Shown: in pieces, positions 7,071 to 39,636 of the stretch | Layout: the number at the start of each line of letters is the position of its first letter | Numbering within the stretch: the stretch's first letter is position 1 | Assembly (NCBI GenBank): GCA_001899085.1 | Contig: MKVB01000002.1 | Coordinates: forward strand, 586,668-638,542 | Reading direction: 5' to 3' | Origin: Devosia sp. 66-14 | Lineage (GTDB): Bacteria > Pseudomonadota > Alphaproteobacteria > Rhizobiales > Devosiaceae | Length of the DNA stretch: 51,875 nt | The notes under the pieces: generated by a model | Database searches by the model: none | What the model saw: the letters and a program-made list of their open reading frames with translations, nothing else | Told to the model about the DNA's origin: nothing | Translations under genes and position numbers: made by a program

Positions 7071-7927
7071 CAGATGCTTCCTTCCGGCTCGACCCGGTGA
7101 ACGGCGACGCCATGCTGTTCGAGCAGCTTGGCGGTGTCATCGGCAAGGCCAGTGTCAGTGATCACGGCGTGGATACGGTCGGCTTCGCAGATCCGGTGCA
7201 GGGCCGGAGCGCGGAACTTGGTGGAATCGGCGAGGACGATCACCCGCTGGCTCACCGCGACCATGGCGGCGTTCTGGTGCGCTTCGGCCTCGTTGAAGGT
7301 CGAGAGGCCGAGCACCGGGTCGATGGCGTCGGCGCCGAGGTAAATGGTGTCGAAGCGCATGCCGCCGACAGTGCTTTCGACCATGCGGCCCGAGAGCGAG
7401 TTGGATTCGAAGCGCACCGTGCCGCCCGGCAGCATCACGGTATGCTGGCTGGCGCCGCGAAATGCCTCGGCGATGTTCAGCCCGGTGGTCATGATCACCA
7501 GCGGATTGGCGGCCCTGAGGTTCTCGGCGAAGAGCTGGGTGGTCGAGCCGGAATCGATGATGATCGAGCGATCGTCACCGACGAGCGACAGGGCGAAGCG
7601 GGCAATGGCGCGCTTGGCGGCAAGGTTCACCACCGCCTTGTCGGTGACGCCGGGATCGATGAACGCCCCTTGCGCTTCGCGGGCCAGCGACATGGCGAGC
7701 GCGATGCGGAAATCCGGCAGGCCCTTGAAGCCGAACTGGCGGCAGAAGCGCAGCACGGTGGGCTCGCTTACCCCGGCGGCGCGGGCGATCTCCTGCAGCG
7801 GCTCGCGGATGAAGGCTTCGGGCGAGGCGAGCAGATAGCTGCCCACCAGCTGGAACGCCTTGTTGTAGCCGCCGAGCCCCAGCGAGATCGACTGGATCAG
7901 CGTCGGGGCCGTCTCGCCAGCCGCCAT
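7070..7927 (-). CDS. Chimeric regulator: RpiR-type HTH with DeoR-type sugar-phosphate sensor
   Basis: A 285-residue transcription factor with an unusual combination. Residues about 15-85 are an RpiR-type HTH (EPLQEIARAAGVSEPTVLRFCRQFGF, then LPDFRIAL). The C-terminal part is not the SIS domain normal for RpiR; it is the DeoR C-terminal sensor: IIIDSGSTTQLFAENL, VIMTTGLNIAEAF, MLPGGTVR, DTIYLGADAID, VLADSTKF. DeoR sensors bind phosphorylated sugars, so the effector may be a sugar phosphate made by the fused kinase downstream. ATG 7927 was chosen because it overlaps the upstream stop (TGATG); the open frame to 8530 lies within the DUF5107 gene. A likely operator lies at 9973-10007, before the first gene of the operon. 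Confidence 0.87.
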   Translation of the reverse strand: MAAGETAPTLIQSISLGLGGYNKAFQLVGSYLLASPEAFIREPLQEIARAAGVSEPTVLRFCRQFGFKGLPDFRIALAMSLAREAQGAFIDPGVTDKAVVNLAAKRAIARFALSLVGDDRSIIIDSGSTTQLFAENLRAANPLVIMTTGLNIAEAFRGASQHTVMLPGGTVRFESNSLSGRMVESTVGGMRFDTIYLGADAIDPVLGLSTFNEAEAHQNAAMVAVSQRVIVLADSTKFRAPALHRICEADRIHAVITDTGLADDTAKLLEQHGVAVHRVEPEGSI

Positions 7928-10227: not shown

Positions 10228-10752
10228 ATGTCCGCAACGCCCCGGTTGCCGGTGACGCTGAGCGTCAACGGCGAGACCCATGTGCTATCGCTCGATCCGC
10301 GGGTGACGCTGCTCGATGCGCTGCGCGAGCACCTGACGCTCACCGGCACCAAGAAGGGCTGCGACCAGGGGCAGTGCGGGGCCTGCACGGTGCTGGTGAA
10401 CGGCCGGCGCATCAATAGCTGCCTCAGCCTCGCGGTGATGCACGAGGGCGACGCGATTTCGACCATCGAGGGGCTGGGAACGCCCGAAGCGCTGCATCCG
10501 ATGCAGGCGGCGTTTGTCGAGCATGACGGTTTCCAGTGCGGCTACTGCACGCCGGGGCAGATCCTCTCGTCGCTCGCGGTGATCGAGGAGATCCGGGCCG
10601 GCGTGCCGAGCCACGTCACCGGCGATCTCGACGCGCCGATCCCGTTGAGCGACGCAGAAATCCGCGAGCGGATGAGCGGCAATCTCTGCCGCTGCGCCGC
10701 CTATCCCAACATCATGGCGGCGATCCGCGACTACCTGGGAGAAGGCGCATGA
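10228..10752 (+). CDS. paoA: PaoA-like [2Fe-2S] subunit of a molybdenum aldehyde oxidoreductase
   Basis: A 174-residue iron-sulfur subunit of the xanthine dehydrogenase family. The plant-type cluster is bound by Cys45, Cys50, Cys53 and Cys65 (CDQGQCGAC...C), and the second cluster by Cys104, Cys107, Cys154 and Cys156 (CGYC...CRC). It passes electrons from the molybdenum site to FAD. Unlike E. coli PaoA there is no twin-arginine leader, so the complex is probably cytoplasmic. ATG 10228 follows a strong GAGGGGGGAAA site. The frame is open from 10111, but that stretch lies in repeat DNA. The 4-base ATGA overlap with the FAD subunit shows an operon. Confidence 0.9.
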
Positions 10753-26087: not shown

Positions 26088-26118
26088 CGAAGTCGCGGCC
26101 CCTCAATCAGGGGCGACG

Positions 26119-26255
26119 GGCCGGTGTGGGAAGAGTACCCCCACCCCTGTCCCCTCCCCGCAAGGGGGAGGGAGACGCTCCCACCGGCGCTGGTGTTTTG
26201 GTCTCCTCCCCCCTTGCGGGGGAGGGACAGGGTGGGGGGTACTCTTCCCGCCCCG
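26119..26255. repeat. Long palindromic intergenic repeat, family A, copy 3 (inverted orientation)
   Basis: Reads as the reverse complement of the other copies: GAAGAGTACCCCCACCCC at the left, the GGGAGACGC...-type centre reversed, and GGGGTACTCTTC at the right. It is placed after the FadR-type gene and before the sugar importer operon. Confidence 0.8.
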
Positions 26256-26392
26256 TACTGTCCTTCGGAGAGGCGCCGACTGCCGGCCCGGCTGAATACC
26301 GACCGACCGTCGGTTCCCATTTCCACTACGACTTTTTGAGCAAGCGGACGCGTGCAGCAGCCGCTTGACCACGGATCGCTCCGCGTGTCATC

Positions 26393-26428
26393 GTTCAGCC
26401 TATGGATAGGCGTTCAGCATAGTGAACG
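26393..26428. promoter_or_regulatory. IclR operator upstream of the CUT1 importer operon
   Basis: Half-site GTTCA at 26393-26397, a second GTTCA 19 bases later at 26412-26416, and an inverted TGAAC at 26423-26427. The last two form the palindrome CGTTCAGCATAGTGAACG (26411-26428). Between the first two sits another palindrome, GCCTATGGATAGGC (26398-26411). The same three-half-site geometry recurs at 38281-38318 next to the IclR gene. A TTGACC box at 26365-26370 may be the -35 element. Confidence 0.72.
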
Positions 26429-26538
26429 ACAGGCGCATAAGTCGCCGGCACGATGCTTCGCCCGTCCCCGACCGATCATCACGCCTCCCGATGCCCGGGA
26501 AGCGATGAAGCGCTCGTGTTCCTTGGGAGGAAAGCAAC

Positions 26539-27882
26539 GTGTCCAAGACCACCCTAACGCAGTTCACGCCCAGCCGGCGTGCTGTTCTTGCGGGTCTCGC
26601 CGCCTCGCCGTTCGCGCTTGCCGCGGGCAGCCATCTCGCCATGGCGCAGCCGACCAGCGGCACGCTGTCGATCGCGGTTTTCGACTGGGCCGAAATCGGC
26701 GTGAAGCCGGTGTTTGCCGCCTACGAGGCGGCCCGTCCGGGCGTCAAGATCGAGTACTCGGTGATCCCGTCGGCGGAACTGCGCCAGGCCCTGCTGTCGC
26801 GCCGCCTCGCCAACAAGCTGCCCGATATCACCTATCTCGCCGATATCTACGCGACGCAGCTGGCCAACGCGGAAGTCACCGCCGACATGCGGCCGTTTCT
26901 GACCTCGGGCGGGCCGATCGGCCTGAACTCGCTGGCCAAGCCCTTCCTCGACCAGTACCTGATCACCTCGGGCCCGAACAAGGACGGCATTTTCGGCCTA
27001 CCGATCGGCGCCGACACCGTCGTGCTCTACTACAACAAGAAGCACTTTGACGACGCTGGTATCCCCTATCCCGACGACACCTGGACCTTCGAGAAGCAGA
27101 TCGAGGTTGCAACCCAGCTGACCCAGAAGAATGGCAGCGTCACCACCCGCTACGGCCTCGCCGCGTCGGTGCCGTGGCACGCCACTTATGTTCCGGGCAT
27201 CGAAGCCTTCGGCGATACGCTGCTTGACGAAAACAACATGTACAAGCTGCAGACCGAGGCCGCGATCAAGGTCTTCACCATGTACTGGGACCAGGTGAAG
27301 GCGGGCGTGCTCGCTTCGACGCCGCAGCAGAACCAGCTCGGCGGCGGCTACCAGGCCTTCGGCGCCGGCACCGTGTCGATGCTGCAGTCGGTGCGCGCAC
27401 TGACGCCGCTAATCCGCAGCGTGACCACGGACGACTGGGACGTGGCCTTCGTGCCCACCATCAACGGCGTCCGCAAGACCGGCATGGGCTCGATTGCCCA
27501 GGCGATTACGCCGCCGGGTATGGCGAACAACAAGGAACTCGCCTTCGACTACCTCAACTGGTTCTACTCCGAGGACGGCGGCATGAAGATCCTCGCCGCC
27601 GGCTACGGCACTGTGCCGCCGGTCGAGGCACTCTACAACAGCCCGATCTGGACCGATCTGCCCGGACCTCCGTACGACAACCGCATCTTTGCGGAGGCGA
27701 TCCAGTACGGCGCCATGAACCCGACCTCGATCCCGGCCGACGTGCAGGCGGTGGTCGATGCCGAGCTCACCAAGGCGGAAGAGGCGGTCGTGCTCAACAA
27801 CGTGCCGGTGGCCGACGCGCTGAAGGCCGCCGAAACGGTGATCAACGAGGCCATGGCCCGCGTCATGGCGGCCGGCGGCTGA
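26539..27882 (+). CDS. CUT1-type extracellular sugar-binding protein
   Basis: A 447-residue solute-binding protein of family 1 (MalE/UgpB-like). The leader has a twin-arginine look: PSRRAVLAGLAASPFALAAG, cut probably after AMA at residue 36, so Tat export of a folded protein is possible. The mature part shows PDITYLADIYATQLANAEV and the typical YYNKKHFDDAGIPYPDDTWTFE block for the GIP-x-PP-x-TW motif of sugar-binding proteins. Start GTG 26539 follows GGGAGGAAAG. It is first of the probable IclR-controlled operon. The two stem-loops after it probably set its message level above that of the permeases. Confidence 0.88.
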   Translation: MSKTTLTQFTPSRRAVLAGLAASPFALAAGSHLAMAQPTSGTLSIAVFDWAEIGVKPVFAAYEAARPGVKIEYSVIPSAELRQALLSRRLANKLPDITYLADIYATQLANAEVTADMRPFLTSGGPIGLNSLAKPFLDQYLITSGPNKDGIFGLPIGADTVVLYYNKKHFDDAGIPYPDDTWTFEKQIEVATQLTQKNGSVTTRYGLAASVPWHATYVPGIEAFGDTLLDENNMYKLQTEAAIKVFTMYWDQVKAGVLASTPQQNQLGGGYQAFGAGTVSMLQSVRALTPLIRSVTTDDWDVAFVPTINGVRKTGMGSIAQAITPPGMANNKELAFDYLNWFYSEDGGMKILAAGYGTVPPVEALYNSPIWTDLPGPPYDNRIFAEAIQYGAMNPTSIPADVQAVVDAELTKAEEAVVLNNVPVADALKAAETVINEAMARVMAAGG

Positions 27883-27941
27883 TCGCAGGCAAGACCTGCC
27901 GTCGCACGCCTGCAGCGGCGGCGGCAGTCTTCTAGTTGGTC

Positions 27942-28020
27942 GCGCTCTCGAACCGGAAACGTCTCACGACTTTTCCCGAGAGCGCCCCAGTGAACCGGCT
28001 GTGTCCTCCCGCAGCCGGTT
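27942..28020 (+). other. Two intercistronic RNA stem-loops between binding-protein and permease genes
   Basis: Stem 1 pairs GCGCTCTCG (27942-27950) with CGAGAGCGC (27977-27985). Stem 2 pairs AACCGGCTG (27993-28001) with CAGCCGGTT (28012-28020). Both stems are perfect over 9 bp. Such hairpins after binding-protein genes commonly give partial termination or shield the upstream message from 3' exonucleases. Confidence 0.6.
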
Positions 28021-28081
28021 CTCCCTTTCCGCAACGGGACTGACCCTCTTGAGCAAGACCGACACCGCCGACGAGGCCGGC

Positions 28082-28999
28082 ATGTCTGCGATGGCGCGAC
28101 CCAAGCCGCGCCGCAGATCGAGCCGCACCGCCTCCCCGTTCTGGGCCGCCCTGTTCGTTGGGCCCAACGTGATCCTGTTCACCGTCTTCATGGTCATCCC
28201 ACTGGTCTGGGGGTTGGCGCTCAGCCTCTATGACTGGAACCTGATCTACGCGCCACGCTTCGTCGGCTTTGACAATTACCTGGCGCTGATGAATGACGCC
28301 CGCGCCGTGAACTCGGTGGTGAAGACCGTCTATCTGCTGGTGCTCGGCGTGGTGCCGACGGTGTTTCTGTCGTTCTTGCTGGCGGTGCTGATCAATACCA
28401 GCTTTCCTGGCTACAGCGTGTTTCGCACGATGTACCTGCTGCCGATCGTCATTTCTCTCGTCGCTTCGGCCGTGCTGTGGAAGTTCATGTACGATCCGCG
28501 CGTCGGCCCGATCGCGCAATTGCTCAGCTTCTTCGGCGTTTCCGGTCCCAACTGGCTGCAGGATACCACCTGGGCGATGCCCGCTCTGTCGCTGGTGATC
28601 GTCTGGCTGCGGCTGCCGCTCGGCATCATCCTTTACCTCGCCGCACTGCAGCAGGTTAACCCGCAACTGCTCGAGGCTGCCGAGATCGACGGGGCCGGGC
28701 CATGGGCGAAGCTGCGCCACATCATCTGGCCGAACGTCATGCCGGTGACGCTGCTGATCCTGGTGCTGACCTTGCGCGGCATCATCTTCGACAGCTTCGA
28801 CATCGCCTTCGTGATGACCAAGGGCGGGCCGCTCAATTCCACGGATATCCTCGCCGTCTACATCTACGACCTGGCCTTCGCCCAGTTGCGGCTCGGCTAT
28901 GCCTCGGCGTTGTCGACCGTGCTGTTCGTCATCGTCATCATCCTGGCGCTGATCTTCAACCCGCCGCGCCGGCGCCCCACCAACGGAGACACAGTATGA
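28082..28999 (+). CDS. CUT1 ABC transporter permease (MalF/UgpA-like)
   Basis: About 305 residues with six membrane segments. The cytoplasmic loop that docks with the ATPase is EAAEIDGAGPWAKLRHIIWP, the classic EAA motif. The start is uncertain: ATG 28082 has GAGG upstream and gives a normal length; TTG 28049 and GTG 28001 are in frame, but the latter falls inside a stem-loop. The protein imports the sugar captured by the binding protein at 26539, together with the second permease. No ATPase gene is in this cluster, so a shared MalK-type ATPase encoded elsewhere must power it. Confidence 0.86.
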   Translation: MSAMARPKPRRRSSRTASPFWAALFVGPNVILFTVFMVIPLVWGLALSLYDWNLIYAPRFVGFDNYLALMNDARAVNSVVKTVYLLVLGVVPTVFLSFLLAVLINTSFPGYSVFRTMYLLPIVISLVASAVLWKFMYDPRVGPIAQLLSFFGVSGPNWLQDTTWAMPALSLVIVWLRLPLGIILYLAALQQVNPQLLEAAEIDGAGPWAKLRHIIWPNVMPVTLLILVLTLRGIIFDSFDIAFVMTKGGPLNSTDILAVYIYDLAFAQLRLGYASALSTVLFVIVIILALIFNPPRRRPTNGDTV

Positions 29000-29823
29000 G
29001 TGCCGGACACCACTGGCGCCGCCGCCTCCATGTCTCGACGGTGATCTTCTTCGGTCTGGTGATGGCCGCGCCGTTCTACTGGATGATCATCAACTCGTTC
29101 AAATCCAGCCGCGAGGTGGTTGCCTATCCGCCGACATGGTGGCCGACAGAATGGCATCCGGAGAACGTCTGGGCGGCACTCGCCTTCCTCGAGCCCACGG
29201 CGATCGTGAACTCGGTGATCTTCACCGCGATCATCACCATCGTGCAACTCGTCCTGGTGGTGATGACCGGCTTCGCGCTCGCCAAGATGCAGTTCCTGGG
29301 GCGCGGCGCCCTGCTGGGACTGTTCATCCTGACGATGTTCGTGCCCGGCCAGGTCGCGACGATCCCCACCTTCATCCTGATCCGCAACCTCAACTGGATC
29401 GACACCTTCATGGGGCTGTGCGTCCCGATCATTGCGCAGACCAGTTTTGGCGTGTTCATCTTCCGGCAGTTCTACATCTCGATGCCGAACGAGATTCTGG
29501 ATGCGGCCAAGATCGACGGCGCCAACTGGGGCCAGGTGTTCACCAAGATCGTGCTGCCGCTCTCCGGCCCGCCCATCGCCGCCTATGTCGCGGTGACGGT
29601 GCTGACCGCGTGGAACATGTATGCCTGGCCGCTGATCTCGACGACGGAAAAGGAAATGCGCGTGCTGCCGCTGGCCCTCGCCGGGCTCGGCCAGTCATAC
29701 TCGCAAACGCCGCCGAACATCGCCATGATGGCCGTGCTGTTGTCGACGCTGCCGATCATCATCTTCTTCATTCTCTGCCAACGCTATTTCATCAACGGCC
29801 TCGGCGGCTCGTTGAAGGAATAG
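28996..29823 (+). CDS. CUT1 ABC transporter permease (MalG/UgpE-like)
   Basis: A 275-residue permease with six membrane segments. The opening WRRRLHVSTVIFFGLVMAAPFYWMIINSFK is typical of the MalG side. The EAA-type loop is ILDAAKIDGANWGQVFTKIVLP, and the C-terminus ends RYFINGLGGSLKE, as usual for this subunit (FV.G...GAVKG pattern). It overlaps the first permease by ATGA. It completes the membrane channel; the ATPase is missing from the neighbourhood. Confidence 0.9.
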   Translation: MSAGHHWRRRLHVSTVIFFGLVMAAPFYWMIINSFKSSREVVAYPPTWWPTEWHPENVWAALAFLEPTAIVNSVIFTAIITIVQLVLVVMTGFALAKMQFLGRGALLGLFILTMFVPGQVATIPTFILIRNLNWIDTFMGLCVPIIAQTSFGVFIFRQFYISMPNEILDAAKIDGANWGQVFTKIVLPLSGPPIAAYVAVTVLTAWNMYAWPLISTTEKEMRVLPLALAGLGQSYSQTPPNIAMMAVLLSTLPIIIFFILCQRYFINGLGGSLKE

Positions 29824-29851
29824 GCCGAGGTTTATTAGCGGGAGCTAAGAC

Positions 29852-31108
29852 GTGACTACAGTACCAGTCTGCCTCGTCGGGTGTGGGGGCATGGGGAGCC
29901 GGCATGTGCAGGGCTTTGCCCGGCTGCAGCGCTCGGGCCTGAGCAATGTCCGGCTCGTCGCGGTGTGCGACGTGCGGCAGGACAATGCCGAGCGGGTCGC
30001 CGGCGAGGCCGAGAAGCTGCTCGGCTACCGGCCGAAGATCCACCTTGCGATCGACGACGCGGTGGCCGACCCGGAGATCGCGGCGTTCGACGTGGTGACG
30101 GAGGCGTTCAGCCACCTCGCGGTGGTGCTGCCGGCCCTGCGCGCCGGCAAGCACGTGCTATGCGAGAAGCCGCTGGCGCTGACGGTGCGCTCGTGCCAGG
30201 CGCTGATCGAGGCGGCGAAGGCCGGCGGCGCGGTGCTGGCGACGGCCGAGAACTACCGGCGCGATCCGACCAATCGCCTCGCCAAGGCGGTGATCGATTC
30301 CGGCGTGCTCGGGCCTGTTCACCTGATGGTGCAGACGATGATCGGCGGCAATGACCGGATCATCATCACGCCGTGGCGGCACTTCAAGGACAAGGGCGCC
30401 ATCGGGCTCGACATGGGCGCGCATCTGACCGACATCGTGCAGTATTATTTCGGGCCGTTCCAGGCGGCGTTCGGCAAGGGTTTCATCGCCGAGCCGATCC
30501 GCCGCCGGCAGGAAAAGCCGGAGATGCAGACCGAGGCGTATCTGAAGCGCTTCCTCGAAATCCCCGCTGAGATCACCGCTACTGGCGAGGACTCGTTCGC
30601 CGCGACCTTCACCATGCAGTCGGGCCTGATGGTGCAGATGGCCTTCGTCGCTTCGGGCCCGGGCAAGGGCTACAACCAGCGCACGGTGCATGGGCAGCGC
30701 GGCTCGCTCGAGATCTTCAACGATCGCACCGGCAAGGCGCCGATCCTTCATACCGCCGAGGGCGACCTCACCGGGCAGGCGCTGGCCGACAAGGTCGGCT
30801 TTCAGCTCGATGCGCTGACCCAGAAGCTCTATGGCGGAGTGTCGTACGAGCTCGACTGGGCCGAGACGGATTCAGGCCTCCTCGCCATCGAGATCCACGA
30901 TTTCGCCGCCGCCATCATGGAAGGCCGGCCGCCGGAAGTGGACGGCGAGGGCGGCCTCACGGCCGTCGCCTCGGTGCTCGCCGCCTATGAGAGCGGTCTT
31001 GCCGGCCGCGCGGTGACGATGGACGAGGTGCTGTCGAGCACGGTTTCGACGTATCAGGACGACATCGACGCCGACCTCGGGCTGTTGCCCAAGTCGAACG
31101 CCGCCTGA
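29852..31108 (+). CDS. Gfo/Idh/MocA-family oxidoreductase
   Basis: A 418-residue NAD(P)-dependent dehydrogenase. The nucleotide loop is VCLVGCGGMGSRH, the catalytic-lysine motif is HVLCEKPLAL, and the C-terminal substrate sheet carries the likely active-site segment GLDMGAHLTDIVQYYFG (Asp and His). Starts with GTG 29852, preceded by GGGAG. Members oxidise sugars, inositols or aminosugars, usually at ring hydroxyls. Following the importer directly, it is a likely first catabolic step, turning the imported sugar into a lactone or ketosugar. At 418 residues it is somewhat longer than the usual 330-390. Confidence 0.87.
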   Translation: MTTVPVCLVGCGGMGSRHVQGFARLQRSGLSNVRLVAVCDVRQDNAERVAGEAEKLLGYRPKIHLAIDDAVADPEIAAFDVVTEAFSHLAVVLPALRAGKHVLCEKPLALTVRSCQALIEAAKAGGAVLATAENYRRDPTNRLAKAVIDSGVLGPVHLMVQTMIGGNDRIIITPWRHFKDKGAIGLDMGAHLTDIVQYYFGPFQAAFGKGFIAEPIRRRQEKPEMQTEAYLKRFLEIPAEITATGEDSFAATFTMQSGLMVQMAFVASGPGKGYNQRTVHGQRGSLEIFNDRTGKAPILHTAEGDLTGQALADKVGFQLDALTQKLYGGVSYELDWAETDSGLLAIEIHDFAAAIMEGRPPEVDGEGGLTAVASVLAAYESGLAGRAVTMDEVLSSTVSTYQDDIDADLGLLPKSNAA

Positions 31109-31119
31109 GGGAGGACAGG

Positions 31120-31659
31120 ATGACTGACGCAGCTTTCGCCGCCGTGCCGCTGATCGTCCAGAAGCTCGGCCCCAAGCAGATCGCCTTCGTGGTGCGCGAC
31201 CTCGAAGCCGCGACCAGGCAGTGGTGGGACCTGCTCGGCATCGGACCCTGGACGGCGTGGGAATATACGCCCGAGATCCTGAAGGACATGACCTACAAGG
31301 GCGCGCCGGCCCGGTTCGGCCTGAAGCATGCCCTGGCCTGGAAGGACGGGGTGCAGTTCGAGCTGGTCGAGCCCACCACCGGCCCTTCCTTCTTTGCCGA
31401 TCAGCTCCAGAGCTCCGGCGAAGGCCTCAACCATATCGGCATCCACGTGATGGAAAACCATGCGCAGGCGGTGGCCGAGCTCGAAGCCGCCGGCTTCACC
31501 CGGCTGCAATCGGCCCGCGGCTTCGGCGGCGATGGCAGCGGCGCCTTCGTCTATTTCACCTCCCCAAAGCTCAACGGCCTCGTGCTCGAGCTGATCAGCC
31601 CGCCGGCCACCCGCCGCACACCGCTATTCGTCTATCCCCTGCCTGAGGAAGCAAAGTGA
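31120..31659 (+). CDS. VOC (glyoxalase/bleomycin-resistance fold) protein
   Basis: A 179-residue protein of the vicinal oxygen chelate fold, Glyoxalase_4-like. Two beta-alpha-beta-beta-beta modules: QIAFVVRDLEAATRQWWDLLGIGPW and LNHIGIHVMENHAQAVAELEAAGF. The metal side chains are not clear: His139-like and Glu positions are present in the second module (HIGIHV, LELISPP). Family members include epimerases, dioxygenases and lyases. The chemistry here is unknown. Its position between a sugar dehydrogenase and an enolase-superfamily dehydratase suggests an epimerase or isomerase step. The stop overlaps the next GTG start (GTGA). Confidence 0.83.
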   Translation: MTDAAFAAVPLIVQKLGPKQIAFVVRDLEAATRQWWDLLGIGPWTAWEYTPEILKDMTYKGAPARFGLKHALAWKDGVQFELVEPTTGPSFFADQLQSSGEGLNHIGIHVMENHAQAVAELEAAGFTRLQSARGFGGDGSGAFVYFTSPKLNGLVLELISPPATRRTPLFVYPLPEEAK

Positions 31660-32780
31660 AGATCGAGCGTATCGATACCTACGTCGCGCATAACTGGATG
31701 TTCGTCGAAGTGACGACGGATACCGGGCTCAGAGGCGTGGGCGAATCCACCTTCTTCGGCTTTCCCGAGGCGACCGCCTCGGTGGCCAAGGGCTTTGGCG
31801 AGCGGCTGATCGGCGAGGACCCGTTCCGCATCGAGTACCACAATCTCAGCCTCTACCGCGCCTACTCGATGCGCGGCATGGCCATTGGCGGCGCCATCTC
31901 GGCGATCGACCAGGCGCTGTGGGACATCAAGGGCAAGCATTACCAGGCGCCGGTCTGGGACCTGTTGGGCGGCCGGGTGCGCGACAAGGTGCGCGCCATG
32001 CTGGTGATCCCTTACGGCACGGCCGAAGAAGTGGCGGCGAGCTGCAAGGCCGCCGTCGAGGACGGTTATACCGCGCTCAAGGTGATGGTCTACCAGCCCG
32101 AGCACCACCTGATGGCGTTCGGCGCCAAGGTGAAGGACATGGTCGAGCGCATGGCGCTGATCCGCGAAGTGGTGGGCTGGGATGTCGAGATCGGCATCGA
32201 ACTGCACCGTAACATGGCGCTGGGGGAATCCATCGCGGCGATCCGCGAGTTCGAGCAGTTCCGGCCGCTCTTCGTCGAAGACCCGATTCCGCCCGACAGC
32301 GTCCTCAGCTTCGGCGAGGTGTCGCAGAAATCGCGCGTGCCGATGGCGGCAGGCGAGCGCAACACCTCGATCTGGGAGTTCCGCGAGTATGTCGAGCATG
32401 GCGGGGTGCACCATATCCGCCCCGATGTCGGCATTGCCGGCGGCATTACCGGCACCCGCAAGATCTGCGCGCTGGCCGAGGCGCATCACCAGGGCATCAT
32501 CCCGCACGCCGTGCCCTCGGGCCCGGTGGCGACAGCGGCGCAGGTGCAGCTCGGCTTTGCCGTGCCGAACTGGGAAGTGACCGAGCACATGCTGCAGGAT
32601 CGCGCCCCCTGGACCAAGGCGGTGAAGGCGATCGTCCCGGTCATCAACGGCCATTGGCTGCCCAACGAGACGCCGGGCCTCGGCGTCGAGCTCGACCATG
32701 AGGGGCTGAAGACCATCCCCGTCATCAACAAGGTGCCCCCCACCTCGCTGAAGACCGATGGCTCGGTGGCCTTCAGGTAG
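31656..32780 (+). CDS. Enolase-superfamily (mandelate racemase/muconate lactonizing) sugar-acid dehydratase
   Basis: A 374-residue enzyme with the capping domain and TIM barrel of the mandelate racemase group. The metal and acid/base set resembles galactonate/mannonate-type dehydratases: VEIGIELHRNM on the third strand, FVEDPIPP (metal Glu), MAAGERN (metal Glu), HIRPDVGIAGGIT (Asp) and IPHAVPSGPV (His). Such enzymes dehydrate an aldonic acid to a 2-keto-3-deoxy acid. Start GTG 31656 overlaps the VOC stop by 4 bases. No residue shows which sugar acid is used, because this group is very diverse. Confidence 0.88.
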   Translation: MKIERIDTYVAHNWMFVEVTTDTGLRGVGESTFFGFPEATASVAKGFGERLIGEDPFRIEYHNLSLYRAYSMRGMAIGGAISAIDQALWDIKGKHYQAPVWDLLGGRVRDKVRAMLVIPYGTAEEVAASCKAAVEDGYTALKVMVYQPEHHLMAFGAKVKDMVERMALIREVVGWDVEIGIELHRNMALGESIAAIREFEQFRPLFVEDPIPPDSVLSFGEVSQKSRVPMAAGERNTSIWEFREYVEHGGVHHIRPDVGIAGGITGTRKICALAEAHHQGIIPHAVPSGPVATAAQVQLGFAVPNWEVTEHMLQDRAPWTKAVKAIVPVINGHWLPNETPGLGVELDHEGLKTIPVINKVPPTSLKTDGSVAFR

Positions 32781-32786
32781 GCGCCC

Positions 32787-33641
32787 GTGATCGTCGACAG
32801 CCACACGCACGCCTGGGCCCGCTGGCCCTACGAGCCCCCGGTGCCCGACGAGGCCACCAAGGGCTCGGTGGAGCACCTGATCCACGAGATGGATCAGAAC
32901 GGCGTCGCCGAGGCGGTGATCGTCTCGGCGCGGATCGAGAAGAACCCGGACAACAACGCTTATGGGGCAGCGGCGGTGCGCCGCTACCCCAAGCGGCTGC
33001 ACCAGTTCGCCGATGTCGATTGCGCCTGGTCGCCGGAGTACCACACGCCGGGTGCGGTGGAGCGGCTGCGGGTGGCGGCGGAGACGCTGCCGATCAAGGG
33101 CTTCACCCACTATGTGGGCGAGAACGATGGCTGGTTCCGCTCCGACGAGGGGCGGGCGTTCTTCAAGCTCGCCGCCGAGCGCAAGCTCATCGCCTCGATC
33201 GCCATGGGCCCGGCCTGGGCGGCAGACCTGGGCGCGATCTGCGCCGAGACCCCCGATCTGGTGGTGCTGCTGCACCATATGGGCGGCATCAGTTCGACCG
33301 ACCCGCGTTCGGCGCTCGAGACGATCGCCACGCTGGCGAAATATCCCAATGTCCACATCAAGCTTTCGGGCTTTCACTATGCGGTGGGGCTCGACAATGG
33401 CTGGGACTATCCGCACCCGAGCGCCATGTGGATCGCCGAGGGGCTCCATGCCGCGTTCGGCGCCGACCGGCTGTGCTGGGGTTCGGACTTTCCGGCGCTC
33501 AGCCGGGCCATGACCTATAAACAGGCGCTCGAAATCGTGCGCGTACATTGCCGTTTCCTGGGGGCGGGCGATCTCGCGCCGATCCTGGGCGGCACACTCA
33601 AGCGGCTGCTCGATCAGGCCGCGCCAACGAGGACCAGCTGA
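32787..33641 (+). CDS. Amidohydrolase-2 family protein, probable sugar lactonase
   Basis: A 284-residue TIM-barrel metal hydrolase. IVDSHTHAW is the first metal motif, VLLHHMGG the second, LCWGSDFPAL the third with the catalytic Asp. This cog3618-like set includes L-fucono-, L-rhamnono- and galactono-1,5-lactonases. Placed after a sugar dehydrogenase and beside an acid dehydratase, it should hydrolyse a sugar lactone. Start GTG 32787, six bases after the upstream stop, so no strong ribosome site is seen. The stop overlaps the aldehyde dehydrogenase ATG (TGATG). Confidence 0.86.
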   Translation: MIVDSHTHAWARWPYEPPVPDEATKGSVEHLIHEMDQNGVAEAVIVSARIEKNPDNNAYGAAAVRRYPKRLHQFADVDCAWSPEYHTPGAVERLRVAAETLPIKGFTHYVGENDGWFRSDEGRAFFKLAAERKLIASIAMGPAWAADLGAICAETPDLVVLLHHMGGISSTDPRSALETIATLAKYPNVHIKLSGFHYAVGLDNGWDYPHPSAMWIAEGLHAAFGADRLCWGSDFPALSRAMTYKQALEIVRVHCRFLGAGDLAPILGGTLKRLLDQAAPTRTS

Positions 33642-35029
33642 TGAACGTGCCCGCGCGCCCCGAGACCATGTTCCGTTCGCTCAACCCGGCTACCGGCGAG
33701 CAATTCGGCAGCTATCGCCTGCATGACGGTGCGGAAGTCGAAGCCGCGCTCGAGCGCAGCTTCGCCGCCTGGAGCAGCATACGCGCCGCCGGCATCGCCA
33801 AACGCGCCCGGCTGCTGCTGGCTTTGGCCGATCGGCTCGAAGCCAATCTCGAAGCGTTCGCGCGGCTGATGACGCTGGAGATGGGCAAGCCGATCAACGA
33901 GGCGCGCGGCGAGATCAGGAAATGCGCCGCAACCTGCCGCACCACCGCCGAGCTGGGGCCGGGCTGGCTGGAGCCGCTGGAGGTGAAGAGCCCGGCGCGC
34001 GGCAGCCGGGTGCGCTACGAGGGGCTGGGACCGATCCTCGCGATCATGCCGTGGAATTTTCCGTTCTGGCAGGTGATCCGCTTTTTCGCGCCGGCCTTCC
34101 TTGCCGGCAACACCACGGTGGTGAAGCACGCCGAGAACGTGCCGGCTTCGGCCGAGGCGCTGGAGCAGGTGTTCACCGAGGCCGGCATGCCCGATGGCGT
34201 GCTGGTGAACCTCCGCGTCGATCACCCGACAGTGGGGAAGCTCATCGCCGACAGCCGCATCCGCAGCGTCACCGTCACCGGCAGCGTGCGGGCCGGGCGG
34301 ACCATTGCCGGACTTGCCGGCGCGGCAGGCAAGAAAGCCGTGCTGGAACTGGGCGGCTCCGACCCGTTCATCGTTTTCGCCGATGCCGATTTCAACGCCG
34401 CGGTGAAGACGGCGGTGGCGGCGCGGCACAATAATTCGGGGCAGAGCTGCGTCTGCGCCAAGCGCTTCCTGGTCGAGCAGTCGATCGCCGCCGATTTCAC
34501 CGAGGCCTTCGTCGAGGGCACCCGCAAGCTGAGCTATGGCGATCCGCTCGACGAAACGCATGGGCTGGGGCCGCTGGCGCGCGCCGACCTTCGCGCCGGG
34601 CTGCAGGACCAGCTCGACCGCAGCATTGCCGGCGGGGCGCGGGTGGCGCTGGCCGGCGGCACGGTCGATGGGCCGGGCTTCTTCTTCGCGCCGACCGTTT
34701 TGACCAACGTGGCCGACGATAATGTCGCGGCGCGCGAGGAGCTGTTCGGGCCGGTGGCGCCGATCTTTGCGTTCGCCGACGAGGCAGAAGCGCTGCGCAT
34801 CGCCAACGGCACCGAGTTCGGGCTGGCCGCGGCGGTGTGGACGCGCGACGAGGACCGGGCGCGCCGCATGGAGCAGGCGGTCGAGGCGGGGGCGGTGTTC
34901 ATCAACGACATGGTGCGCTCGGACGCCCATATCTCGTTCGGCGGCATCAAGTCCTCCGGCTATGGCCGCGAGCTCGGGCAGGTCGGCATCACCGAATTCA
35001 CCAACGCCAAGACCGTGTGGATTGGCTGA
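33641..35029 (+). CDS. NAD(P)-dependent aldehyde dehydrogenase
   Basis: A 462-residue aldehyde dehydrogenase, shorter than the usual 480-500, like succinate-semialdehyde dehydrogenases of the GabD-like (YneI) branch. Cofactor region MPWNFPFWQVIR; catalytic base in LELGGSDPFIV; catalytic cysteine in NNSGQSCVCAKRF; C-terminal FGGIKSSGYGRELG. It oxidises an aldehyde arising in the pathway, perhaps glycolaldehyde, lactaldehyde or a semialdehyde. ATG 33641 is coupled to the lactonase stop. The frame is open further back inside the lactonase gene but lacks family sequence there. Confidence 0.9.
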   Translation: MNVPARPETMFRSLNPATGEQFGSYRLHDGAEVEAALERSFAAWSSIRAAGIAKRARLLLALADRLEANLEAFARLMTLEMGKPINEARGEIRKCAATCRTTAELGPGWLEPLEVKSPARGSRVRYEGLGPILAIMPWNFPFWQVIRFFAPAFLAGNTTVVKHAENVPASAEALEQVFTEAGMPDGVLVNLRVDHPTVGKLIADSRIRSVTVTGSVRAGRTIAGLAGAAGKKAVLELGGSDPFIVFADADFNAAVKTAVAARHNNSGQSCVCAKRFLVEQSIAADFTEAFVEGTRKLSYGDPLDETHGLGPLARADLRAGLQDQLDRSIAGGARVALAGGTVDGPGFFFAPTVLTNVADDNVAAREELFGPVAPIFAFADEAEALRIANGTEFGLAAAVWTRDEDRARRMEQAVEAGAVFINDMVRSDAHISFGGIKSSGYGRELGQVGITEFTNAKTVWIG

Positions 35030-35041
35030 CGAGGCAACACT

Positions 35042-36115
35042 ATGACGATCTACAACCTGCCGAGACCCTTGCGCGTCGGCTTCGCCTGCAATGCCGATAC
35101 GTTTGCACGGATGGCTGATGAGGAAGCGATCGAGGCGCTCTCCAGCCTCGGGCGTTTCGAGCATCACCTCTGCGATGAACCCTCGAGCTGGGATGAGGCG
35201 CCGCCGGAGAATTCCGCGGCGATCGACCAGCTGGTGGCGTTTGCAGAGAAGCTCGATGCGCTCCTCGTCTGCCACGGCTCGCCGCGGTTGACCGGCGCCA
35301 TTCTCGACCGGCTGCCGAATTTGAAGTTCATCGCCGAGGTCGAGGGCGACCGCTTCAGCCAGCGCATCGACGTCAATGCCGCCGCCGAGCGCGGCGTCAC
35401 CGTGGTCGATACCACCAATGGCTCGTCCTACCCGGTGGCCGAATGGGCGCTGGCCATGGCGATGATCGGGCTCCGCAATGCCGGGGCGCTGTTCCGCCGG
35501 ATGATCGAGGGCGAAGTGCTGTTCCAGAAATGGGCGGAGCGCGTCGCCGACCCTGGTTTCAACGGTGAGCTCACCGGGCGCAGTGTCGGGCTGATCGGCG
35601 CCGGCTATATCGGCCGCCGGCTGATTGAACTGCTGCAGCCGTTCCAGGCCGATATCTACGCCTTCGACCCTTACGCGCCGCGGGTCCTCGCCGACATTTA
35701 CGACATCACCCTGACCTCGCTGGAGCAGGTGATGGAGTGCGACGTGGTGATCTCGCTGGTGCCGCTGACCCCCGAGACCAAGGGGATGATCGGCGAGAAG
35801 GAGCTGAACCGGCTCCGTCCGCGCTCGGTGTTCGTCAACGTGTCGCGCGGCGCGGTGGTCGACCAGGCGGCGCTGATCCGCCGGCTGGTGCGGGGCGACG
35901 TGGTGGCCTCGCTCGACGTGTTCGACCCCGAGCCGCTCGAGGCGGATTCGCCGCTGAGGACCATGCACAACGTGTTTCTCACGCCGCATATTGCCGGGGT
36001 CACCGCCCCGTGCGGTCCGCGCTTCCTGACGCTGGCCGCCGACGAGATCGCCCGCAAGTTCGCCGGGCATCGCACCCGGCACGACCTGGTGCCGCGCGCC
36101 GGGGTGAAGTCATGA
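35042..36115 (+). CDS. D-isomer-specific 2-hydroxyacid dehydrogenase
   Basis: A 357-residue NAD-dependent dehydrogenase of the SerA/GyaR type. The Rossmann motif is VGLIGAGYIGRRL, the catalytic arginine is in NVSRGAVVDQ, the glutamate in DVFDPEPLEA and the histidine in FLTPHIAGV. There is no C-terminal ACT domain, so it is not a standard biosynthetic phosphoglycerate dehydrogenase. It could reduce glyoxylate or hydroxypyruvate, or oxidise a 2-keto-3-deoxy-acid-related hydroxyl. It overlaps the next gene by ATGA, which joins it firmly to the operon. Confidence 0.88.
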   Translation: MTIYNLPRPLRVGFACNADTFARMADEEAIEALSSLGRFEHHLCDEPSSWDEAPPENSAAIDQLVAFAEKLDALLVCHGSPRLTGAILDRLPNLKFIAEVEGDRFSQRIDVNAAAERGVTVVDTTNGSSYPVAEWALAMAMIGLRNAGALFRRMIEGEVLFQKWAERVADPGFNGELTGRSVGLIGAGYIGRRLIELLQPFQADIYAFDPYAPRVLADIYDITLTSLEQVMECDVVISLVPLTPETKGMIGEKELNRLRPRSVFVNVSRGAVVDQAALIRRLVRGDVVASLDVFDPEPLEADSPLRTMHNVFLTPHIAGVTAPCGPRFLTLAADEIARKFAGHRTRHDLVPRAGVKS

Positions 36116-37176
36116 TCTCGACCGACCTCGCTGCCCGCCGCAAGGCGAGGACGCTCAAGCTGGGCTATTGCGTGCCGGCTTTCGCCATGCCGAGCAGCGG
36201 GTTGTTCCGGGTGCCCAATGTGGCGCGGATCGAGGATGTCGACGTGCTCGGCAATGCCCGCGAAGCCGAGCGGCTGGGCTTTGACTCGCTCTGGGTCTGC
36301 GACCACCTGATGCTGGGGCGCGAGCAGGCGGTGCTCGAGGGCTGGACCACGCTGGCGATGATCGCCGGCGCCACCAGCCGGGCACAACTGGGGCTGATCC
36401 ACCAGGCCAACCTGTTCCGCGCCCCGCAGATCGCCGCCAAGATGATGTCGACGCTCGACCTGCTATCGGGTGGCCGCTTCATCCATTTCTTCGAAGCCGG
36501 CATGGGGCGCCCGGAACAGGTGGCCTATGGCCTCGACTGGGACGACAACCACGATGCGCGGGTCGAACGGCTCGAAGAGGCAATAACCCTGATCAAGGCG
36601 CTCTACGCCTCGGACAAGCCGATCGATTTCGACGGCAAGTTCTATCAGCTCAGGCAGGCGCAACTGGCGCCCAAGCCACAACAGGCGCATATCCCGGTCT
36701 GGCTGGGCGAGGCGTTCGACCCGGTGATCGAGCTCAGCGGTCGCATCGCCGATGGCTGGAATTCAACGCCGGTGACGCTCAGCGAACTCAAGCGCCGGCT
36801 GGCGCTGCTCGATGCGTCGCTGGCCAGGGCCGGGCGGTCGCGCGCCGAGGTGGAGATCAGCTTCGAAACGCAGATCCTGGTCGCGCCGGACCTGGCGTCG
36901 CTGCGCCGCAAGGTGGCGGCTTTGGTCGAACGGATGGTCGAGGCCAGGTCGGGCGAGCCGCAGCCGGAGGTGACCGACTTCGTCGCCGGCCGGGTCGACC
37001 GGCTGCCCGAGGCGATGACCGGGCCGTGGATCATCGGCACGGCCGAGGACGCGAAGGTGCGGATCGTCGAATTGCGGGGGCAGGGGGTCGATCACCTGAT
37101 GCTGTGGTTCATGGATGCCCCGGAGACGGATGGGATGGCGTATTTCATGGAGGAGGTGGCGCCGGGTTTTCGGTAG
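36112..37176 (+). CDS. LLM-class flavin-dependent oxidoreductase
   Basis: A 354-residue luciferase-like (bacterial luciferase fold) protein. Family segments: AREAERLGFDSLWVCDHLML, LDLLSGGRFIHFFEAGMG, IPVWLGEAFDPVIELSGRIADGWN and IIGTAEDAKVRIVEL. Members use FMN or F420; most are monooxygenases that need a separate flavin reductase, but none is found here. Such an enzyme in a sugar-type operon is uncommon; sulfo-sugar cleavage by a flavin monooxygenase is the known parallel, but the rest of that pathway is absent. It may oxidise the imported molecule. It is the last gene before repeat copy 4. Confidence 0.87.
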   Translation: MISTDLAARRKARTLKLGYCVPAFAMPSSGLFRVPNVARIEDVDVLGNAREAERLGFDSLWVCDHLMLGREQAVLEGWTTLAMIAGATSRAQLGLIHQANLFRAPQIAAKMMSTLDLLSGGRFIHFFEAGMGRPEQVAYGLDWDDNHDARVERLEEAITLIKALYASDKPIDFDGKFYQLRQAQLAPKPQQAHIPVWLGEAFDPVIELSGRIADGWNSTPVTLSELKRRLALLDASLARAGRSRAEVEISFETQILVAPDLASLRRKVAALVERMVEARSGEPQPEVTDFVAGRVDRLPEAMTGPWIIGTAEDAKVRIVELRGQGVDHLMLWFMDAPETDGMAYFMEEVAPGFR

Positions 37177-37195
37177 TTGTCAGTGGTGTGGATGG

Positions 37196-37334
37196 GCCGT
37201 TGCGAGAAGAGCACCCCCCACCCTGTCCCTCCCCCGCAAGGGGGGAGGAGACCAGAACACCGGCGCCGGTGAGGGCGTCTCCCTCCCCCTTGCGGGGAGG
37301 GGACAGGGGTGGGGGTCCTCTTCCCGCACCGGTC
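37196..37334. repeat. Long palindromic intergenic repeat, family A, copy 4
   Basis: Same design as copies 1 and 2, with GAAGAG at the left arm and CTCTTCCCGCACCGG at the right. It separates the long operon from the IclR regulator gene. Confidence 0.8.
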
Positions 37335-37428
37335 GTGATGGTCCAGCGGCGATCACCGGGATCCCGGTCCTGAATCGCTTGCACGCTGGTCCCGGCGCTC
37401 GCTAATGCCTAAACTCGGGGCAAGGAGA

Positions 37429-37440
37429 ATGGATAGCTGA
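37429..37440 (+). other. Three-codon micro-ORF coupled to the IclR start
   Basis: ATG GAT AGC TGA at 37429-37440 directly follows AAGGAG. Its stop shares the A of the IclR start codon (TGATG). The ribosome site is too close to the micro-ORF ATG and rather far (12 bases) from the IclR ATG. It may tune initiation or be accidental. Confidence 0.25.
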
Positions 37441-38222
37441 TGATCGAAGACACCGAGCAGCGGGGCAAGGCCGTCCCCGCGCTGGTCCGGACCAAGAAAA
37501 TTCTCGATGCGCTCAGTACCGGCGGCAAGCCCAAGGGCGTGTCGGAGCTGGCGCGCATGCTGGACCTGCCCAAGAGCACGGTGCATGGGCTTTGCCATAC
37601 CCTGGTCGATCTCGGCCTGATGATGCGGGTGGGGCCGTCGCAGTTCGCGGTGGGCCCGCATGTGCTCAGCTGGGCCAACGCCTTCGAAGGCCAGAGCGAC
37701 CTGACGCAGGAATTCATGCGCATCGCCGAGGCGACCGACCTGATCTCGGAACAGGCGATCAACCTTTCGATCCTCACCGGCCGCGAAGTGATGTATGTGG
37801 CCTGCCGGCGCGGCACCGATCCGCTCGGGGTCAGCTTCCGGCCCGGCGTGCGCCTGCCGGCGCCGTTTACCGCCACCGGCAAGGCGATGATGTCGACGAT
37901 GCGGCCCGAGGAAGTCGAGGCGCTGTTCGGCGACGAGTGGCCGGAGCCGTGGACCAAGCAGAGCGTGCCCGATCTCAAGACGCTGATGCGCGAGCTCGAG
38001 GAGACGCGCGAGCGCGGCTATTCGATCGACGACGGGCAGTTGCGCGACGCCATGGTGTGCTTCGGCGCCCCGGTGTTCAACGCCAGCGACGACCACGCGG
38101 TGGCCGGCATCGCCATCGGGCTGTTGCGCGGCGAGGTCAACGACACCTCGCGGGCGCAGGTCAGCCACGCGGTACGGGCACTGGCCGACAAGCTCAGCCA
38201 TCGCCTTGGCGGCAATACCTAG
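37440..38222 (+). CDS. IclR-family transcriptional regulator of the sugar pathway
   Basis: A 260-residue IclR protein. The winged helix is at residues about 15-65 (PKGVSELARMLDLPKSTVHGLCHTL), followed by the GAF-like effector domain (YVACRRGTDPLGVSFRPGVRLPAPFTATGKAMM, ERGYSIDDGQ, AVAGIAIGLLRGE). It sits between two halves of a catabolic cluster, and near-identical operators occur before the importer operon (26393) and just after its own gene (38281). IclR proteins often bind as tetramers, which fits the three half-site layout. The effector may be the imported sugar acid or a keto product. Confidence 0.9.
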   Translation: MIEDTEQRGKAVPALVRTKKILDALSTGGKPKGVSELARMLDLPKSTVHGLCHTLVDLGLMMRVGPSQFAVGPHVLSWANAFEGQSDLTQEFMRIAEATDLISEQAINLSILTGREVMYVACRRGTDPLGVSFRPGVRLPAPFTATGKAMMSTMRPEEVEALFGDEWPEPWTKQSVPDLKTLMRELEETRERGYSIDDGQLRDAMVCFGAPVFNASDDHAVAGIAIGLLRGEVNDTSRAQVSHAVRALADKLSHRLGGNT

Positions 38223-38253
38223 CCGAATGTGCGGAATACGACTGGCGTCTACG

Positions 38254-38280
38254 TTGACATCGGCGCCTGTCATCTAGATT
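38254..38280 (+). promoter_or_regulatory. Candidate promoter of the ABM/FAH gene pair
   Basis: TTGACA (38254-38259) is a perfect -35 box. TAGATT (38275-38280) is a possible -10 at a tight 15-base spacing. The IclR operator begins immediately downstream, which would allow repression of transcription from this promoter. Confidence 0.45.
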
Positions 38281-38318
38281 GTTCAATACCGAGAATATCG
38301 TTCAGTATATTGAACGAT
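38281..38318. promoter_or_regulatory. IclR operator upstream of the ABM/FAH gene pair
   Basis: GTTCA at 38281-38285, GTTCA again 19 bases later at 38300-38304, and the inverted TGAAC at 38311-38315. The second and third form a perfect palindrome with 8-bp arms ATCGTTCA (38297-38304) and TGAACGAT (38311-38318) around GTATAT. The order and distances of the half-sites equal those at 26393-26428. Confidence 0.75.
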
Positions 38319-38350: not shown

Positions 38351-38644
38351 ATGATCGTCCTGATCGCCAAGTACCACACGAAGCCGGGCAACGTGCCGAA
38401 GGTGCTGGCCGAACTCGTCAAGATGAAGCCGCTGGTGGAAGCCGGCGAGCCGGGCTGCAAGTTCTACCAGGTGTCGAAGTCGACCGAGAACGAGAACCTG
38501 ATCGTGCTCTATGAGCACTATGTCGATGCGGCAGCGCTCGCCGCGCACCGCGAGACGCCGCACTTCAAATCGATCATCGAGGGCACCGTGATCCCGATGC
38601 TCGAAAAGCGCGAGCGCGAGCTCTACGAACTCGCCATCTCCTGA
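38351..38644 (+). CDS. Antibiotic biosynthesis monooxygenase (ABM)-fold small protein
   Basis: A 97-residue protein of the dimeric alpha-beta barrel ABM fold. Its pattern is IVLIAKYHTKPG on the first strand, EPGCKFYQVSKSTEN on the second, LIVLYEHYVDAAALAAHRETPHFK on the third and helix. This resembles LsrG/YgiN-like proteins. Such small barrels are cofactor-free oxygenases, isomerases or cyclases. It lies directly behind the IclR operator with GGAAGGAA upstream, and 8 bases before the FAH gene, so it is strongly regulated and co-expressed with it. The actual substrate is unknown. Confidence 0.83.
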   Translation: MIVLIAKYHTKPGNVPKVLAELVKMKPLVEAGEPGCKFYQVSKSTENENLIVLYEHYVDAAALAAHRETPHFKSIIEGTVIPMLEKRERELYELAIS

Positions 38645-38652
38645 GGTTTGAG

Positions 38653-39636
38653 ATGCGCCTCGTTTCCTTCGAACTCTCCACTGTCACCGGTCCTCTGACG
38701 CGGATCGGCGCCGTGCTGCCGGATGGCCGCTATGCCGACCTGCAATCGGCCTATCGGGCGGTGCTGGGGGATAACGGGGCAAGTCGGGAAGGGGCGGCGC
38801 GGCTAGCCGCCGCCACCATCCCCTCGGATATGGTGGCCTTCATCCAGAACGGGACGACTGCGCTCGATGCGGCGCAGTCGGCCCTCGACTGGGTGACGGC
38901 GAAAGACGAGACCGGGCCGGATGGCGCAACGCTGGTATTCGCGCCCGGGGCGGTAAAGCTCCTGGCGCCGGTGCCGCGCCCGCCGCTGATCCGCGACTTC
39001 ATGGCGTTCGAGACGCATTTGAAGAACATCTACCCCAAGCTCGGGCGCGAGATCCCGCCGCAGTGGTACGAGCTGCCGGTCTATTACAAGGGCAACCCCT
39101 CGGCGGTCGGGGGCGAGGGCGATATCGTGCCGATGCCGGCCTACGCCACCAACATGGATTTCGAGTTCGAGTTCGCGGCGGTGATCGGGCGGGGTGGCAG
39201 CAATATCCAGCGCGCCGATGCGCTCAGCCATATCTACGGCTACATGATCTATAACGACTTCAGCGCCCGCGAGATTCAGCAGCGCGAAATGTCGGTGGGC
39301 CTCGGGCCCGCCAAGGGCAAGGATTTCGAGAAGGGCCACGTGTTCGGCCCCTGGCTGGTGACGGCCGACGAGATCCCCGACATCTATGCCTTGCGCATGC
39401 AGGCGACCGTCAACGGCCAGCCCTGGTGCGACACCAGCACCTCGACCATGCACTGGCGCTTCGACCAGATGATCGCCCATGCCTCGATGAACGAAATGCT
39501 GGTCGCCGGCGAGATTTTCGGCAGCGGCACGGTGGGCGGCGGCTCGGCCGCCGAAGTCGGCAAGACGCTGGCCAAGGGCGACAAGGTGGTGCTGACGATG
39601 GATCGGCTGGGCACGCTGAGTAATGTGATCGGGTAG
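38653..39636 (+). CDS. Fumarylacetoacetate hydrolase (FAH)-family protein
   Basis: A 327-residue member of the FAH family: N-terminal cap (MRLVSFELSTVTGPLTRIGAVLPDG) and catalytic barrel. Metal ligands are suggested by FMAFETHLKN, DFEFEFAAVIGRGG and IYGYMIYNDFSAREIQ (Glu, Glu, Asp), and LGPAKGKDFEKGHVFGPWLVTADEI is the signature region. FAH-type enzymes end several sugar-acid pathways, cleaving a 2,4-diketo-3-deoxy acid into pyruvate and a shorter acid, or hydrating 2-keto-enols. It is the second gene under the IclR operator, so it should act at the end of the same pathway as the genes at 26539-37176. Confidence 0.88.
   Translation: MRLVSFELSTVTGPLTRIGAVLPDGRYADLQSAYRAVLGDNGASREGAARLAAATIPSDMVAFIQNGTTALDAAQSALDWVTAKDETGPDGATLVFAPGAVKLLAPVPRPPLIRDFMAFETHLKNIYPKLGREIPPQWYELPVYYKGNPSAVGGEGDIVPMPAYATNMDFEFEFAAVIGRGGSNIQRADALSHIYGYMIYNDFSAREIQQREMSVGLGPAKGKDFEKGHVFGPWLVTADEIPDIYALRMQATVNGQPWCDTSTSTMHWRFDQMIAHASMNEMLVAGEIFGSGTVGGGSAAEVGKTLAKGDKVVLTMDRLGTLSNVIG

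Follow-up and report, generated by a model that had tools for sequence, protein, structure and literature searches.

Based on the sequence of a 51,875-nucleotide stretch of DNA from Devosia sp. 66-14 (the whole stretch is called the window below), two copies of the pattern GTTCA-N14-GTTCA-N6-TGAAC, at 26393-26427 and 38281-38315, are proposed to be the operators of the BlcR-like regulator of the IclR family encoded at 37440..38222 on the forward strand. Each operator would be occupied by a dimer of dimers that represses the adjoining promoter and is released by a pathway intermediate, and we give this reading a probability of roughly 0.87. The first operator lies upstream of a long run of importer and catabolic genes, and the second lies upstream of a pair of genes encoding an ABM-domain protein and a fumarylacetoacetate-hydrolase (FAH) family protein; the two sites very probably define one regulon.

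The proposed operator pair

Operator 1 (26393..26427, forward strand) reads GTTCA-GCCTAT-GGATA-GGC-GTTCA-GCATAG-TGAAC, with boxes at 26393-26397, 26404-26408 (degenerate), 26412-26416, and 26423-26427. Operator 2 (38281..38315, forward strand) reads GTTCA-ATACCG-AGAAT-ATC-GTTCA-GTATAT-TGAAC, with boxes at 38281-38285, 38292-38296 (degenerate), 38300-38304, and 38311-38315. A pattern search of the window found both copies exact, as the original prediction had claimed, and a recount of the 18-mers CGTTCAGCATAGTGAACG (26411) and CGTTCAGTATATTGAACG (38299) agreed with it that they differ at two positions. The genome of the strain (5.72 Mb) contains only these two exact copies and none with one mismatch; eight rows carry two mismatches, one of which is operator 2 read backwards. 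The base composition of the window predicts about 0.0016 exact matches per 5.72 Mb, and none of 500 dinucleotide shuffles of the window contained an exact match, in line with the earlier view that a chance match is improbable. When up to three mismatches were allowed, the window yielded five rows, three of which are the two operators again, read with an offset or in reverse; shuffled sequences gave 0.34 rows on average, and none of 100 had as many as five.

The two operators share all 15 box positions, 7 of the 20 between-box positions, and 9 and 10 of 30 positions in the two flanks; they are therefore no recent copies of each other, because the positions between and around the boxes have diverged. 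The single palindrome GTTCA-N6-TGAAC occurs at 15 places in the genome, including both operators. Among the 13 others, the two with the most A/T-rich cores were inspected as candidates for a third regulon site and rejected, as both are located inside long open frames and reach at most 12 of the 15 letters.

The BlcR-like regulator

The protein encoded at 37440 is placed in the IclR family by its matches to PF09339 (48.9 bits, cut-off 22) and PF01614 (93.6 bits, cut-off 24). Its best relative of solved structure, at 201.1 bits, is 3mq0, the Agrobacterium protein that represses the blcABC operon, and 1mkm comes next at 58 bits; among the matches listed, blcR on Agrobacterium plasmids shows 43.1% identity over residues 1-257. 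Filing the regulator under BhcR or PcaU was considered and rejected, since both NCBIfam scores fall below their cut-offs: BhcR gave 108.9 bits against 350, and the second match, PcaR/PcaU/PobR, gave 89.7 bits against 284.75. According to the available part of PMC6402643, BlcR is a tetrameric repressor released by gamma-butyrolactone (GBL) and gamma-hydroxybutyrate (GHB), and the accessible text of PMC3907764 adds succinic semialdehyde (SSA) as a releasing compound.

The kinship extends to the DNA sites. The blcR region of Agrobacterium fabrum C58 contains GTTCA-CTCTAA-TGATT-CAA-GTTCA-ATTAGT-TGAAC with TTGACA 28 bp upstream, and this site and both window sites are alike in all 15 fixed letters. 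The comparison covered 19 loci that have a BlcR-like regulator and do not belong to the orthologous Devosia cluster, comprising three plasmid records (H1, H2, and H13) from 114 with a regulator match, 12 new loci of 14 matches in the order, and four genomes of the family. A site with at least 12 of the 15 letters was found within 700 bp of the regulator gene in 17 of these 19 loci, eight of them with all 15, whereas none of 18 distant IclR paralogues and none of 30 control windows exceeded 11/15. The counts are non-independent, as near-copies occur among the loci (L075/L076, L092/L095, and L048-L050). The site of the beta-proteobacterium Cupriavidus metallidurans retains 14 of the 15 letters. 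An aldehyde dehydrogenase relative is located beside the regulator in four of 15 loci (L083, which is the A. fabrum locus, L084, L086, and L088), for which mostly about 1.5 kb on each side was available, and also in L075 and L076.

Architecture of the proposed operators and promoter geometry

BlcR binds two inverted repeats, and the layout of the Devosia operators is best read from their letters as two palindromes, each enclosing N6 and separated from the other by N3, with a degenerate second half-box. The three half-sites originally described thus become four, with a degenerate box between the first two that is clear in distant relatives and weaker in Devosia. In the sites outside the Devosia cluster, the in-register spacer matches TGAAC at three or more of five letters in 13 of 18 cases, and other offsets do so in at most 5 of 18; these 18 sites were picked without scoring spacer letters, except that the orientation of L085, with two readings tied at 12, was chosen by eye. 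All 15 distinct sites of the Devosia set have G and A at spacer positions 8-9. The palindrome centres are 19 bp apart. The arrangement is not an unusual one but is documented in the IclR family, for which the part of PMC8222616 that was available links tetramers to tandem sites with a spacing of 18-22 nt. By analogy with these sites and with the tetramer described for BlcR, the earlier suggestion of a tetramer on two adjacent dimer sites remains a fitting one.

A second feature, overlooked in the earlier account of the regulon, is a TTGAC at a nearly fixed distance upstream of the boxes, hinting at repression. The probable -35 element of the importer-operon promoter, TTGACC at 26365..26370 (forward strand), starts 28 bp before box 1, and that of the ABM-FAH promoter, TTGACA at 38254..38259 (forward strand), starts 27 bp before it. 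Across 35 sites, which are non-independent, TTGAC starts 26-28 bp before box 1 in 28, namely 16/16 in the orthologous Devosia cluster and 12/19 outside. The possibility that TTGAC is a further half-site was rejected, as its distance to the boxes varies by 1-2 bases, as that of a promoter element would. The usual 17-base spacer puts the -10 element at the first bases of box 1; therefore, a protein bound there would block the polymerase, and the geometry suggests repression.

The regulator might instead bind both sites as an activator, like PcaU, but this is improbable. PcaR/PcaU/PobR is its second NCBIfam match, and the lack of a good -10 element at either site would suit an activated promoter. 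However, that match falls far short of its cut-off, the closest relative of solved structure is a repressor, and in the 28 of 35 sites mentioned above the operator follows the probable -35 element and covers the expected -10.

Conservation in related genomes

The exact site is present in 14 of 136 genomes of the family, and a regulator match at E<=1e-20 in 30 of 136, 12 of which are below 1e-50, a cut-off set after a gap between 1e-54 and 1e-27 had become visible. Of the 12 genomes with a regulator at E<1e-50, all but one (G072) carry the exact site, against 3 of the 124 others (Fisher's exact test, p = 9e-13 when relatedness is ignored and 0.05 when collapsed to 16 genera). The placement of both sites relative to the genes is shared by the window, G085 (there split over two contigs), G089, G095, G098, G099, and G102, and site 1 is also present in G088. 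A joint loss of operator 2 and the ABM-FAH pair from G088 was considered and dropped, because the region in question reads N. When the window sites were compared with their counterparts in G085, G095, G098, G099, and G102 (10 pairs), the boxes were identical at 15/15 positions, and 10-13 of the 20 other positions agreed. The six related loci are Devosia or uncultured Rhizobiales records, with an identical regulator in one. The original assignment of both sites to one regulon with the 37440 protein as binder is thus upheld by the co-occurrence in family genomes and by the 17 of 19 BlcR-like loci.

That another IclR-family or unrelated regulator of the same genome binds both sites is very unlikely. 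A first look gave 17 loose IclR-like candidates in the genome, but only one of its proteins matched at E<=1e-20, and the pattern occurs with BlcR-like regulators of several families and of Cupriavidus but not with the 18 distant IclR paralogues. A chance resemblance or a by-product of recent duplication, for which no point in favour was found, can be set aside, given the shuffles, the divergence between and beside the boxes of the two sites, and the retention in relatives of site positions and of boxes with diverged spacers.

Several observations weigh against the operator and repression reading. An exact site occurs without a regulator at E<1e-50 in G086, G009, and G127; of these, G086 is fragmented; it has the importer genes and their site but gave no regulator match, and its contig ends before the second region. 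Two BlcR-like loci, L077 (in G072, 45% identity) and L094, score 11/15, which is the background level. Only the 18 outside sites show the register of box 2 clearly; in the Devosia set, no more than 7 of 15 sites reach three of five letters in this box, and the neighbouring offset does equally well (7/15). On the promoter side, seven of the 35 sites, including those of Cupriavidus and Methylorubrum, have no TTGAC at -26 to -28; one has it at -32 and six have none, and the stretch from -6 to -65 holds no further TTGAC at any of the 35 sites. Neither window site yielded a full promoter in a sigma-70 consensus scan, and the -10 was placed by spacing only for this reason. Finally, of 397 genomes of the order, 14 contain the regulator at E<=1e-40 but only 3 have TTGAC-N22-operator when up to one mismatch across the whole pattern is tolerated; the operator-promoter module is therefore not rigid.

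Three further loci deserve description in their own right. In G087 (L071), a regulator of 48% identity is flanked on both sides by operators, at 9461-9495 (reverse strand) and 10451-10485 (forward strand), one exact and one with two mismatches; the 20-kb stretch examined contains none of the other window genes at E<=1e-8. In G127 (L078), the exact site at 7823-7857 has a 2-hydroxyacid dehydrogenase relative encoded nearby, and an IclR protein with about 30% identity is encoded some 5.6 kb away. The L077 regulator has Arg after the conserved helix His, a position at which G, A, S, T, or V is found in the 18 other BlcR-like proteins of the alignment.

Proposed mechanism

A possible mechanism for the control of both gene groups is as follows. 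Each operator would consist of two palindromic dimer sites of the GTTCA-N6-TGAAC type, of which the upstream one is degenerate in its right half, and a dimer of dimers of the 37440 protein may occupy both palindromes. The bound regulator, covering box 1 and the expected -10, could keep RNA polymerase off the promoter. A pathway intermediate, which by analogy with BlcR may be a semialdehyde, a hydroxy acid, or a lactone, would then release the regulator, and its release could switch on the importer and catabolic genes (perhaps iclR too) and the ABM-FAH pair. The aldehyde dehydrogenases neighbouring related regulators and the Sad-like enzyme of the window suggest an inducer of the semialdehyde type.

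In a broader and more tentative proposal, which we rate at somewhat less than even odds, BlcR-like regulators in several families of the order would share a common operator-promoter module, in which two palindromes spaced by 19 bp follow a -35 element at a distance of mostly 26-28 bp and the promoter-side palindrome has a weak right half. Cupriavidus keeps the boxes of this module and not a visible TTGAC. In Devosia, the module might serve a sugar-type oxidative pathway twice, and the regulator should therefore sense a new semialdehyde-like or lactone-like intermediate. If so, the weak half-box would set cooperativity, with the tetramer loading the strong palindrome first.

Genes of the proposed regulon

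All genes described here are encoded on the forward strand. The first gene after operator 1 encodes the solute-binding protein (SBP_bac_1) of a sugar-type ATP-binding cassette (ABC) importer (26539..27882), followed by ABC permease 1 (28001..28999, start approximate) and ABC permease 2 (28996..29823, with the start inferred from the reading frame; the longest open reading frame begins at 28702). The importer thus comprises a binding protein and two permeases, with no ATPase among the genes scanned at 26539-37176, and it may share an ATPase encoded elsewhere. The run continues with a Gfo/Idh/MocA oxidoreductase (29852..31108), a glyoxalase-superfamily protein (31120..31659), and an MR_MLE protein of the enolase superfamily that is sugar-acid-dehydratase-like (31656..32780; best NCBIfam match to galactonate dehydratase, at 272.7 bits and thus short of the cut-off of 311). 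These are followed by an Amidohydro_2 protein that is weakly lactonase-like (32787..33641; 32.9 bits against a cut-off of 400), an aldehyde dehydrogenase (33641..35029, start inferred) whose best PDB relative is the succinate-semialdehyde dehydrogenase Sad (439 bits), a D-2-hydroxyacid dehydrogenase (35042..36115), and a luciferase-like monooxygenase (36112..37176, start inferred). The regulator gene, whose product is the predicted binder of both operators, comes next. Behind operator 2, the ABM-domain protein (38351..38644) is encoded first and the FAH family protein (38653..39636) second, relatives of the latter including L-2,4-diketo-3-deoxyrhamnonate hydrolase (70.8 bits). As judged from these family matches, the gene set resembles a non-phosphorylative sugar-acid route; no NCBIfam match of the window proteins exceeded its own cut-off, and the enzyme relatives of the window genes gave no nameable substrate.

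The gap between the luciferase-like gene and iclR measures 263 nt in the window, 275 nt in G089, 132 nt in G088, and only 70-90 nt in G095, G098, G099, and G102. Because of the short gap in these four genomes, the importer operon may extend to iclR as its final gene, and autoregulation is possible. A dispersed element of about 140 bp, itself palindromic (131 nt arms, 94% complementary), flanks the importer run with copies at 26115-26262 and 37197-37332, one of which occupies most of the luciferase-iclR gap. At least 84 alignments of this element were found in the genome, both orientations counted, 40 of 170 first-look candidates having been scored.

Comparison with known systems

The BlcR/blcABC system of A. 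fabrum C58 is similar in its 43% identical regulator, its exact operator pattern with the upstream TTGACA, and a gene of the succinate-semialdehyde-dehydrogenase type downstream of the operator. In A. fabrum, as known here from sequence alone, the operator lies between blcR and a divergent dehydrogenase gene, whereas the Devosia stretch has two operators, a long importer and catabolic run, and a separate ABM-FAH pair, with iclR co-oriented behind the importer run. The orientation of the regulator was treated as a matter of gene arrangement and not as a defining trait of a BlcR-like protein. As described in the available text of Suvorova and Gelfand (2021, PMC8222616), the boxes fit the outer part of NGTYCRAW4TYGRACN of the NGT-12-ACN subgroup, the regulons of which frequently contain sugar and sugar-acid genes and COG1012 dehydrogenases, and the Devosia centre distance lies within the 18-22 nt given there for the tandem palindromes of 94 orthologous groups. 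The window sites differ from this subgroup in that the inner A-W4-T is kept only partly and the upstream palindrome is degenerate. The three-box operators of PcaU and PobR in Acinetobacter, in the same portion of that source, likewise combine a palindrome with an external direct repeat of the half-site; in contrast, their half-site sequence is another one, they serve regulators of aromatic pathways, and the window protein scores far below the PcaR/PcaU/PobR cut-off.

Among the literature matches listed (titles and the starts of abstracts), no paper on these Devosia sites was found. Tandem IclR-family palindromes and BlcR-like operators are a known architecture, and what is new is this Devosia case, which provides a strong regulator-operator assignment, linked to BlcR, for an uncharacterised sugar-type catabolic cluster. 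BlcR has already been tried as a biosensor part, as stated in the accessible section of PMC6402643, and the constant boxes with diverged spacers of the BlcR-like sites offer a natural alignment for how an IclR operator of four half-sites is read.

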